A DNA stretch of 32,084 nucleotides from Chitinophagaceae bacterium (GTDB lineage Bacteria; Bacteroidota; Bacteroidia; Chitinophagales; Chitinophagaceae). The stretch covers positions 1 through 32,084 of the forward strand of contig JAGNRR010000002.1 in NCBI GenBank assembly GCA_017988595.1. Reading direction: 5' to 3'. The translations under genes were made by a program, and so were the position numbers. Below, piece by piece: positions 15,530 to 18,933 of the stretch. The notes beneath the pieces are model-generated. The model was not told the DNA's origin, searched no databases, and saw only the letters and a program-made list of their open reading frames with translations. How positions within the stretch are numbered: the stretch's first letter is position 1; every line of letters begins with the position of its first letter.

Positions 15530-17824
15530 TTAAAATTGATAAACACATCGAAGTGTAAAATTTCTGCCCATTTCATCAGCAAAATATCGAAGCCTATTTA
15601 AATAATCTCTATATCGAATATTGAATGCATTATCGCATTGCAATGACATAAATAATTCTTTGTCTTTAATTAAAAATTTTGTTTCTGCACCAAAATTTAC
15701 TAAGCCAAAAGAAGGTGGTGGCATTAAAAAATCTTGAAATGCTAAAAGTCTATTTTGTCGCATTACATATTTATAAGAGGTAAAAAGTTCAGTTTGTTTT
15801 ATAAAAGTATTTGTCATTAAAATTTGTTTATGAACTGCAATTGAAAAATTATTTGCTGGCATAAATACAAGTGGAATATTTTGTGCCACATCCTGCCCTT
15901 TCAATAAATTTATTTTAGATAAAAAAAATAAAGATTTTGCGGCTTGATATTTTCCTAAAAAATCTATTCCCATCAACAAAGCATTTGTTTGTTCATATTT
16001 AAAAACTGGAAATGCACCGCGAATAGTTAATCTGAAATCGGGTTGTGCTTGTAGGAAAATATAATTTTGTATTTGATGTGCAAATGCACTTGCTTCTATA
16101 AAAAATTTATCATTCAATTGTAAATGATGGGTATAAGCAAATTTGTTTCCCATTTCAGGTTTTAAATTTCTGTTTCCTTCTTCAATCCCTGAAACGCCTT
16201 GATGCAAACCATTGCTATAAAGTTCATTTACCTCAGGATTTCTAAAAGAAATTCCCCAATTGAAATTTCCAAAATGGTTTTCTGAAAAATAATAACTCAG
16301 GCCGCCAAGTCCGCTTACATTAAAAAATAGATGTGATGGCTCTTCATAAATATTTTGCTGCGTATATTGATATACTTTCAAAAAAGTTAAATCTGTTTTT
16401 GCGCCAAGTTCATATTTCCATTTGCCTTTATTTTTTGAAAAACCAGCAAAAGCAGTCTGCATGAAATTTGTATAGTTCGGAATTAAAGGCCTAATGCCTG
16501 TTTCGGCATTATTACTATTTTGAGTAAAACGTGTTTGAGTGCCAAGTTTAAAATCAAAACTTGTTGAAAATTTATTGTACACAATACCAAGTTGATTTGC
16601 CCAAAGTTGTAAAGACAATGCTGGTATATTTTCTCGTCCACCTCGACGAACATCAAATTCTTTTCTATTATTAAATTGTGTACTCCATGTAATTTTTAAA
16701 AGTGTATTGTTTCCCCAATCAATATTTGATTCGGTTTTAAATAAATGATGCATTACATTTTGACGAGGAGATGATAAGGAATAATTGAAATTTTCATTTG
16801 TAAAAAACGGAATTTTTTTCTGAATGGCTTCTTGTAAATCATTTAAATTTCCAACATGAGCACCTCGCAAAATTCCCAAATTGGTTGAAAATATACTATA
16901 GTTCATTGTTTGTTTCCAATGTTGACTAATATTTTTTTCTAATTGAAATGAAAAATTTTTTTCATCCACTCCAGTATTTGTCAAAAAATAATCAGGTGTT
17001 TTTCTGTCGCCTAGTTTTTTTAATGTCCCACCAATTCTATATTTTAGCCAAGGTTTTTTTTGTTCAACTTGTAAAGAAAGTTGTCCTCCACGACCATTGC
17101 TTTGCAACGCAGAAATTATTTTTCCGTGTAAATGTGGATCATTGCCAATAGGTAAAGCACTTGCATTGATAATTCCCGACATGCCATTTCCTCCATATTC
17201 AAAACCGCCAACACCTTTTATAATATTTAATTGTTGCATTTGCAAAGGATCTATTTCTGGTGCATGATCGCTTCCCCATTGTTGTCCGGCTTGCGGAATG
17301 CCATTGTTCAAAATTGTAATTCGGTTTCCACTCATGCCATTGATTATTGGCTTATTAATATTAGCACCATTTGATGAAATTGAAACTCCTGGAATTAATT
17401 CGGCTAATTGAGAAAATGTTTTTCCGCTATTTTTTTGGATTTCTTTTTTGCCAATCAGATGCTCTTCAATAACTTTTTCGTTATTGCTGTTTATATGCAC
17501 TTCGTGCAAAAATTCGGTGTGATGTTCTATTTCTATTTCAATAAAAGTATCTTTTTCAATTTTTAAAAAAATAATTTTATTATCACATCCCACATGACTA
17601 ATTATCAAATGAACATCGCCCAAGCAAACATTTTTAATTGAAAAAAAACCATGCTTGTCTGTTTTAGTTCCAAGCGTAGTTTTTTCTATTCGTATATTAG
17701 TATTTGGTAATATTTCTTTTGTGCTTTTATCTTTAACAATTCCAGTTAGTTTGACATTACATTCTTGAGCAAAAAGATTGCTTCCAAAAAAAATAATAAA
17801 TAATATGCTACAATATTTTTTCAC
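15530..17824 (-). CDS. TonB-dependent outer-membrane receptor, probable metal uptake
   Basis: 764 residues. Signal peptide 1-19 (ILFIIFFGSNLFAQ), a CarboxypepD_reg-like domain about 23-100 (GIVKDKSTKEILPNTNIRIE), a plug domain about 115-230 (INGMSGNRITILNNGIP, GSDHAPEIDPLQMQQLNIIK) and a 22-strand-type barrel ending in an aromatic residue (LRCVYQF). The translation begins with GTG at 17824, 4 bp after the lipoprotein stop. It is not a SusC pair: no SusD gene is adjacent. Its partners, a His-rich protein and an acidic lipoprotein, and the upstream palindrome point to metal (zinc, copper or iron) import. The ligand is inferred from context, not from a proven binding motif. Confidence 0.87.
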   Translation of the reverse strand: MKKYCSILFIIFFGSNLFAQECNVKLTGIVKDKSTKEILPNTNIRIEKTTLGTKTDKHGFFSIKNVCLGDVHLIISHVGCDNKIIFLKIEKDTFIEIEIEHHTEFLHEVHINSNNEKVIEEHLIGKKEIQKNSGKTFSQLAELIPGVSISSNGANINKPIINGMSGNRITILNNGIPQAGQQWGSDHAPEIDPLQMQQLNIIKGVGGFEYGGNGMSGIINASALPIGNDPHLHGKIISALQSNGRGGQLSLQVEQKKPWLKYRIGGTLKKLGDRKTPDYFLTNTGVDEKNFSFQLEKNISQHWKQTMNYSIFSTNLGILRGAHVGNLNDLQEAIQKKIPFFTNENFNYSLSSPRQNVMHHLFKTESNIDWGNNTLLKITWSTQFNNRKEFDVRRGGRENIPALSLQLWANQLGIVYNKFSTSFDFKLGTQTRFTQNSNNAETGIRPLIPNYTNFMQTAFAGFSKNKGKWKYELGAKTDLTFLKVYQYTQQNIYEEPSHLFFNVSGLGGLSYYFSENHFGNFNWGISFRNPEVNELYSNGLHQGVSGIEEGNRNLKPEMGNKFAYTHHLQLNDKFFIEASAFAHQIQNYIFLQAQPDFRLTIRGAFPVFKYEQTNALLMGIDFLGKYQAAKSLFFLSKINLLKGQDVAQNIPLVFMPANNFSIAVHKQILMTNTFIKQTELFTSYKYVMRQNRLLAFQDFLMPPPSFGLVNFGAETKFLIKDKELFMSLQCDNAFNIRYRDYLNRLRYFADEMGRNFTLRCVYQF

Positions 17825-17828
17825 TTAA

Positions 17829-18386
17829 TTATTGAATGGTTAAATCAAATTCTACCTCAATATCTGTTTCGCCACCAGCATTTGTAATATCACCTTGTGC
17901 TACATTTGCACCATTTTTATTAGGTTCATGTCTTAGTGTGATTTTTAATTTTCCTGTGCTGGCATTTCCAGTTTGAACATTAGTTTTTAATCCAATTGGT
18001 TTTTGATTACCATCTAAATCATCATAAGTAGTTGTAATATTTAACCCAGTTTCATTTTTAAAGAAAAACTGATGTGCTTCATCCTCTTCTTCAATTTCGG
18101 TGTTAATATTTTCGGGTGTTGGACCACTTTCGTCAAGTAATTCCAATGAGCCTTTATAAAGGATATTTGGCGTTAAAGCTTTGCTTACAGTAATAACTGG
18201 AGCACTTCCGCCGTCGCCATCAGCATCTTTAAATTTACAAATAATAGTATCGGAAGTAGAAGTTAATGTATAAGTTAACGTTGTTATTAATTCTTCCTCG
18301 TTTACAATTACAGGTTCTGGTTTTTTACAGTTAAATAAAATTATTGTACATAGTAAAAATGCAACGATTGTTGTTGTTGTTTTCAT
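17829..18386 (-). CDS. Acidic surface/periplasmic lipoprotein of the metal-uptake operon
   Basis: 185 residues with a lipoprotein signal ending ILFNC (Cys20 as the lipidation site) and a beta-rich remainder. EEELITTLTYTLTSTSD, FKDADGDGG, TEIEEEDEAHQFFFKNETGL and LRHEPNKNGANVAQGDITNA form a pattern I associate with a Bacteroidota family often labelled 'type 1 periplasmic binding fold', encoded beside TonB receptors. The acidic stretch with a His could bind a cation. Gene spacing is 20 bp after the His-rich gene and 4 bp before the receptor. Function is inferred from this pairing only. Confidence 0.75.
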   Translation of the reverse strand: MKTTTTIVAFLLCTIILFNCKKPEPVIVNEEELITTLTYTLTSTSDTIICKFKDADGDGGSAPVITVSKALTPNILYKGSLELLDESGPTPENINTEIEEEDEAHQFFFKNETGLNITTTYDDLDGNQKPIGLKTNVQTGNASTGKLKITLRHEPNKNGANVAQGDITNAGGETDIEVEFDLTIQ

Positions 18387-18406: not shown

Positions 18407-18901
18407 TTAAATAATAAAATGAAACACATCGTTTAAAATTATTTCGATGTGTTGGTTGTGTAAAATAAATAATATTGGATTTAACTTAAAAAAAACTGGC
18501 GGTGCTCTGCCTAAATATTCTTTATTGTAAAATAAAAAATAAAATTGTTGAGTTGAAAATGTTGATGTTGAAAAATAAAAATTGGCTATAAAATTAAAAA
18601 CAAATTTTTCTTCAATGTCTATTGTGGAATAAAATTCACAATCCTTACATTTTTTTTTTTGTGCATTAAAATGTTTTTGATGATGACAGACATTGCCTTT
18701 TATATTAAAGTGTGCTGTACTTTGATGACAAACATTTTTTTCAATTTCTTGATGATGTTTTGTAATTTCTTCATGAACATGTTTTTTTCCGTGTTGAAAA
18801 AAATGATAACATGACCCCAAAAAGTATAAAAATAAAATTAGCCAAGCAATAATTTTTTGCTTAGGATTGCTTTTATTTATTTTACAGGTTGAACAATTCA
18901 T
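18407..18901 (-). CDS. His/Cys-rich membrane-anchored protein, unknown family
   Basis: 164 residues, not recognised. One hydrophobic helix at about 17-36 (IIAWLILFLYFLGSCYHFF) follows a short N-terminus with CSTC. A His- and Cys-dense stretch from about 35 to 90 contains HGKKHVHEEITKHH, CHQSTAHF, CHHQKHF and CKDCEFY. Many possible metal ligands in so short a stretch suggest a metal-binding or metal-buffering protein at the membrane. It is first in a three-gene operon with a lipoprotein and a TonB receptor. The -7 box ends 7 bases before the ATG, so the mRNA would be leaderless or nearly so. The exact reading frame is supported by the operon position. Confidence 0.65.
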   Translation of the reverse strand: MNCSTCKINKSNPKQKIIAWLILFLYFLGSCYHFFQHGKKHVHEEITKHHQEIEKNVCHQSTAHFNIKGNVCHHQKHFNAQKKKCKDCEFYSTIDIEEKFVFNFIANFYFSTSTFSTQQFYFLFYNKEYLGRAPPVFFKLNPILFILHNQHIEIILNDVFHFII

Positions 18902-18908
18902 GTATGTG

Positions 18909-18933
18909 CAAAGGTAAATAATATTGAATATTA
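18909..18933 (-). promoter_or_regulatory. Candidate metal-operon promoter with 7-1-7 palindromic operator
   Basis: On the minus strand TACCTTTG (18916-18909) matches the Bacteroidota -7 box. Two bases upstream, 18919-18933 is a perfect palindrome with 7-base arms around one centre base (TAATATTGAATATTA), the geometry of Fur/Zur/PerR boxes. A repressor there would block the promoter. The AT content means chance cannot be excluded. Confidence 0.45.

Follow-up and report, generated by a model that had tools for sequence, protein, structure and literature searches.

How is a metal-uptake operon controlled when its first gene encodes a small His/Cys-rich protein of no recognised family? The question is raised by a locus within a stretch of 32,084 nucleotides of Chitinophagaceae DNA, referred to below as the window, in which three genes lie one behind the other on the minus strand. 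The initial annotation had taken them for a candidate metal-uptake operon with a leaderless promoter and, just upstream, a palindrome of the form used by repressors of the Fur family (Fur, Zur or PerR). The elements it described all lie where it had put them, on the minus strand:

18919..18933 (18933-18919 on the minus strand): 7-1-7 palindrome TAATATT-C-AATATTA, read directly from the sequence
18909..18916, minus strand: -7 promoter element TACCTTTG, of the Bacteroidota type, separated from the palindrome by two bases (TT) and ending 7 bases before the leader ATG at 18901
18407..18901, minus strand: leader gene, a small exported His/Cys-rich protein of the R(A/G)PP class, 164 aa as assembled; candidate nascent metal sensor
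17829..18386, minus strand: lipoprotein of an unmodelled family, 20 nt after the leader
15530..17824, minus strand: TonB-dependent receptor, 4 nt after the lipoprotein

Our analysis supports an operon of the metal-uptake type with an unrecognised His/Cys-rich first gene and, plausibly, a leaderless promoter. Regulation, however, more likely takes place inside this first gene than at the palindrome.

The palindrome and the promoter

Perfect 7-1-7 palindromes are common in DNA of this composition: the window holds 5 of them, against 6.4 expected under a first-order Markov model, and 2 of its 33 promoter regions contain one, against 0.63 expected. The exact sequence TAATATTNAATATTA occurs once in the genome of the window (G000, a 1.97-Mb draft, 70% complete, in which degenerate copies are possible). 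It does not occur in the two other genomes of the genus (G001 and G002), and this palindrome is missing upstream of the leader in G001 (locus L059) and of the other leader genes inspected. The palindrome is most likely a chance product of AT-rich DNA, a caveat that the initial annotation had itself entered.

What does recur upstream of the lipoprotein-receptor cassette in relatives is another motif, TTGCAACAnTGTTGCAA, which appears to be a real Zur-like box. Of 121 loci, 34 encode near the cassette a short Fur-family protein, here called Zur-like. A profile of this protein hits structures of the Fur family, with two Zur structures near the top. This box is absent from the window promoter, where the best match has 7 mismatches and is no better than in shuffled sequence. 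Neither PF01475 nor the Zur-like protein profile of the order detected a Fur-family gene in G000 (70% complete) or G001 (93% complete); a profile search found one in G002.

These observations bear on the proposal that a Fur-family repressor binds the palindrome, which overlaps the promoter spacer, and shuts the operon down when metal is plentiful. Its 7-1-7 form, its position just upstream of the -7 element and the Zur-like genes flanking the cassette in many relatives all speak for such an operator. The number of palindromes in the window, the single copy in 1.97 Mb, the absence from same-genus promoters, the lack of a detectable Fur-family gene in a draft that is incomplete and the distance of at least 7 mismatches from the recurring box speak against it. 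We regard this operator as very improbable and, on chance statistics, uniqueness and missing conservation, reject the Fur-box reading. The initial annotation had itself named absence from orthologous promoters as a refutation, and by that standard the operator fails.

The promoter fares better. The pattern TAnnTTTG is found 6-8 nt before the start in four relatives with the same first gene (L059, L062, L064 and L065), so the leaderless promoter of the window operon looks real, although only 10 of 42 loci headed by a leader-type first gene have the pattern at such a spacing. A near-leaderless transcript is thus to be expected from TACCTTTG.

The first gene as a candidate arrest leader

Known ribosome-arrest peptides have R(A/G)PP as their core motif (PMC10951233, PMC12992588), and a 2025 survey reported R(A/G)PP ORFs upstream of TonB receptors in Gram-negative bacteria generally (PMC12992588). 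The first gene of the window is small, precedes a TonB receptor, and encodes an N-terminal membrane or export segment (the hydrophobic stretch being judged by eye), 14 His, 7 Cys ahead of RAPP, and a Cys motif about 45 residues before the putative arrest motif:

18638..18649, minus strand: CKDC, residues 85-88, candidate metal site, with Cys 47 and 44 residues before Arg132
18497..18508, minus strand: RAPP codons (residues 132-135), where ribosome arrest is predicted; CCA at 18499-18497 is the second Pro codon
18488..18495, minus strand: T8 tract, read from the sequence, immediately downstream of the RAPP codons

Similar ORFs head 41 of 120 cassettes. Their products, of about 90-171 aa, start with a hydrophobic segment in the N-terminal part, are rich in His and have several Cys; they end in R(G/A)PP or a near variant followed by 2-11 residues, and can hardly be aligned (14-26% identity to the window protein). 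The distance between Cys and Arg is nonetheless kept: in 40 of the 41 leaders, 43-49 residues separate a Cys from the Arg that follows it (mean of 9.8 leaders in shuffled sequences, maximum 19), and the same holds for all 25 leaders in a second set of 60 loci, assembled after the first (shuffled mean 6.5, maximum 14). The class was defined by the Arg/Lys-PP motif and not by the Cys spacing. In the window leader, Cys residues stand 74, 60, 47 and 44 residues ahead of the Arg of RAPP, the same ladder as in many leaders of the second set. Since the R(A/G)PP end and the Cys spacing match the geometry of CruR and CutF, two copper-sensing leaders described below, the first gene is probably a nascent-protein sensor of their kind.

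One feature sets the window leader apart: as assembled, its RAPP lies 29 residues from the C terminus, against 2-11 in relatives. One base more or less in the T8 tract would give a protein ending RAPPVFF or RAPPVFLS, 3-4 residues after PP, as in relatives; assembly error, polymorphism or slippage may lie behind such a difference in length. In G001, the nearest relative with a leader and of the same genus, the leader ends KSPP, not R(A/G)PP. At two other loci, small ORFs just upstream of the TonB gene end NRPPPSIS (L145) and CRPPPALN (L185); from their sequences, both ends come close to the arrest motif, and the ORFs are perhaps leaders that have degenerated or are of an alternative type.

Pfam and NCBIfam offered no convincing name for the leader. 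Membership in DUF2946 (PF11162) was considered and rejected: this profile has no match in the window protein and none over its cut-off in 99 genomes of the order. No relatives of the leader were found in viral contigs.

Predicted RNA pairing between the region after RAPP and that before the lipoprotein start

The end of the leader gene is predicted to pair with the initiation region of the lipoprotein gene:

18479..18496, minus strand: 5' arm of an 18-bp RNA stem in the predicted fold, starting with the base right after the RAPP codons
18395..18412, minus strand: 3' arm of the stem, at -9 to -26 before the lipoprotein ATG (initiation region)
18423..18453, minus strand: inner hairpin of 9 bp in the predicted fold, AACACATCG / CGATGTGTT

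The 129-nt segment that begins with the RAPP codons and ends shortly after the lipoprotein start has a folding energy of -21.4 kcal/mol (z -5.41), a value that none of 200 shuffled sequences reached. The 18-bp stem extends from one base beyond the second Pro codon to 8 nt short of the lipoprotein ATG, and a ribosome stalled at RAPP would cover about 10-13 bp of it, holding much of it open. On this model, the pairing in the window is as expected for translation controlled by arrest.

Pairing of this type is in excess at 39 leader loci, with 9.2 pairs against 5.8 in shuffled sequences (p 6e-4), while ordinary gene junctions, taken as controls, show 5.5 against 6.0. At 21 loci of the second set the signal is weak (7.0 against 5.6, p 0.11). 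A stem between leader and next gene was therefore not retained as a universal feature and, with so small an excess in the second set, it is the window for which the stem has the best support.

The lipoprotein and receptor cassette

Of 248 genomes of the order, 132 contain a relative of the lipoprotein; a wider genome collection yielded more than 500 matching stretches, the best ones in many groups of Bacteroidota. The lipoprotein gene is joined to a TonB receptor gene in 112 of 121 loci. Pfam and NCBIfam contain no convincing model for the protein, whose predicted fold is a confident beta-sandwich (pLDDT 92). Four residues are invariant, D56, H105, H153 and D175, and may be metal ligands; a metal site cannot be argued from the structure, since the fold has no match above the background of common folds (best Foldseek E 0.045; VIA Z <=8.3). 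In some genomes the lipoprotein domain is tandemly repeated within single long ORFs (G205:C11:22292-24967, G223:C138 and G151:C16), that of G205 encoding five copies in 924 aa.

The receptor matches heme-type receptor and ZnuD models far below their cut-offs, with 56.9 bits against a cut-off of 950 for the ZnuD model of NCBIfam (NF038289). ZnuD is nevertheless its closest solved sequence (4.6e-08, in the plug region only). The cassette most likely forms an outer-membrane metal-uptake operon, and zinc is its probable substrate because the cassette often lies beside a Zur-like gene.

Further neighbours point the same way. The exact box TGCAACAnTGTTGCA is rare, with 3 copies or fewer per genome in the 17 genomes searched; several of these copies are located at the cassette, and two belong to MerC genes. 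The MerC-domain genes that carry it, at L193:1092-1508 and L195:1601-1996, belong to box-bearing relatives. In G030, the neighbourhood of the cassette holds a MerC gene beside a Zur-like gene, and a ZigA-like zinc GTPase scoring 554.6 bits, just below the cut-off of 600.

Leaders and Zur-like boxes across relatives

A box was counted as present with at most 4 mismatches to TTGCAACAnTGTTGCAA, and only complete loci were considered. By this measure, 8 of 41 leader-headed cassettes have a box, as do 56 of the remaining 75 (p 1.5e-8); the second set gives 9 of 25 and 28 of 32 (p 7e-5). On the receptor tree, leader loci are intermingled with box loci, and leader status changes at least 19 times. 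Among 16 supported independent pairs, the box went the opposite way in 6.6 and the same way in 0.8 (median p 0.07). Leaders and Zur boxes thus likely exclude each other, a sequence-based association that becomes no more than suggestive once kinship is corrected for. At several loci, L223 and L224 among them, a leader and the box occur together, which argues that cassettes under a leader and those under Zur transport the same metal. In G002, a genome of the window's own genus, a Zur-like gene and not a leader precedes the cassette (L060:5605-8937); the receptor there groups away from that of the window, which suggests exchange of the whole cassette.

It looks as if the leader here takes on the task that falls to Zur in many related bacteria. 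We tentatively extend this, at somewhat worse than even odds, to a broader proposition: that in Bacteroidota, Zur and its box have repeatedly been exchanged for, or derived from, a zinc-sensing nascent chain that stalls at R(A/G)PP, with the transporter unchanged.

Proposed mechanism and alternative explanations

We propose, with a probability of roughly two in three, that the window holds an operon for metal uptake across the outer membrane, most likely of zinc, and that the product of its leader gene acts as the sensor while still nascent. Translation of the leader would start on a near-leaderless mRNA, and the product would insert into the membrane. With its His/Cys site just outside the ribosome tunnel and free of metal, the ribosome would stall at RAPP and cover the 5' arm of the 18-bp stem, which would free the initiation region of the lipoprotein gene and let the transporter be made. 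Binding of metal would release the stall, the stem would close and expression would fall; the palindrome would have no role. We infer the stalling, zinc as the ligand, a translational rather than Rho-dependent output and the direction of the response, the last from CruR. The zinc assignment, which is probable, draws on gene neighbourhoods: the Zur-like gene in 34 of 121 loci, the ZigA-like GTPase, the MerC genes with the same box, and ZnuD as the nearest solved sequence. Several facts weigh against our proposal: RAPP lies far from the end of the assembled frame, in which a ribosome, once released, would read on across the stem; the stem signal of the second set is weak; the exclusion of leader and box is only suggestive when kinship is allowed for; the leader of G001 ends KSPP; the receptor has a resemblance to heme receptors as well; and the experimentally studied leaders of this kind sense copper.

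This last point leads to an alternative we consider unlikely, though with some real weight, in which the leader-type regulation is right but responds to copper, or to a metal other than zinc. Copper is the ligand of CruR and CutF (PMC9426467, PMC9973294), CXXC is a usual copper site, and CutF-like proteins are common in Bacteroidota, TonB genes being frequent neighbours of that class. Set against this are the links of the same receptor family to Zur-like genes, ZigA and MerC, the mixing of leader and box loci on the receptor tree and their presence together at some loci, and the finding of the 2025 survey that leaders of copper genes are absent from Bacteroidota (PMC12992588). The form of the output is a separate matter. 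Rho-dependent termination between leader and lipoprotein, as in CruR, might replace the unmasking of a start; this precedent and the weak stem signal of the second set favour it, and the strong stem predicted exactly between RAPP and the start in the window disfavours it, so that we think it doubtful, at somewhat under one chance in three. We find it improbable that the small protein has no role in cis and works in the periplasm as a metal chaperone or as an accessory of the receptor. Its many His, membrane anchor and operon shared with a transporter would suit such a function, but conservation limited to R(G/A)PP near the end, with a fixed Cys-to-Arg distance, is the pattern one would expect of an arrest peptide, and the protein is missing from most Zur-box cassettes. 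The His/Cys-rich ORF probably encodes a regulator, not an accessory protein.

The alternation of these leaders with Zur on a single uptake cassette provides a testable function for an uncharacterised protein family. It also suggests zinc as a new ligand for nascent-chain sensing, the metal-sensing arrest leaders studied by experiment responding to copper, and it offers some 16-19 natural switches between two types of control of one transporter.

Comparison with known systems

We found neither a zinc arrest leader nor a Zur regulon of this cassette type in the literature searched, and nothing specific in the Riemerella literature on zinc-regulated TonB genes. The text of the 2025 survey does not mention zinc (PMC12992588), and the authors of the CruR study stated that no riboswitch is known for zinc or copper (PMC9426467).

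The nearest solved sequence to the window receptor is that of ZnuD, the Neisseria zinc receptor, although the window receptor falls far under the NCBIfam cut-off. Zur and its box accompany the same lipoprotein-receptor cassette in many relatives; the window promoter lacks the box and no such regulator was found in the draft genome (70% complete), and in these bacteria the box is TTGCAACAnTGTTGCAA, not the AT palindrome. The arrest peptides ApdA and ApdP resemble the window leader in being small proteins of the secretory pathway, encoded upstream of a regulated gene, that contain R(A/G)PP; theirs lies close to the C terminus, that of the window leader 29 residues from it as assembled. ApdA and ApdP are linked to protein localization genes.

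The closest parallels are the two copper sensors. In CutF, the leader of cutO in Rhodobacter capsulatus, 45 residues separate the copper motif from the C-terminal one, and a stem-loop covers the start of the next gene (PMC9973294). The window leader resembles it as a candidate exported nascent sensor with a putative metal motif about 45 residues before a proline-rich motif, and with a stem predicted to mask the next start; CutF differs in its ligand, copper, in its CxxxC motif and in activating a copper oxidase, without a TonB receptor. CruR, the DUF2946 leader of bfrG in Bordetella pertussis, has CXXC and RAPP 45 residues apart (PMC9426467), and its arrest at RAPP was demonstrated in vitro (PMC12992588). 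Like the window leader, it is a small exported protein encoded by the first gene of an operon with a TonB-dependent transporter, with CXXC at about that distance from RAPP, which in CruR is C-terminal. CruR, however, is a copper sensor of the DUF2946 family that acts through Rho, whereas the window has neighbours of the zinc type and an AT-rich stem predicted over the next start.
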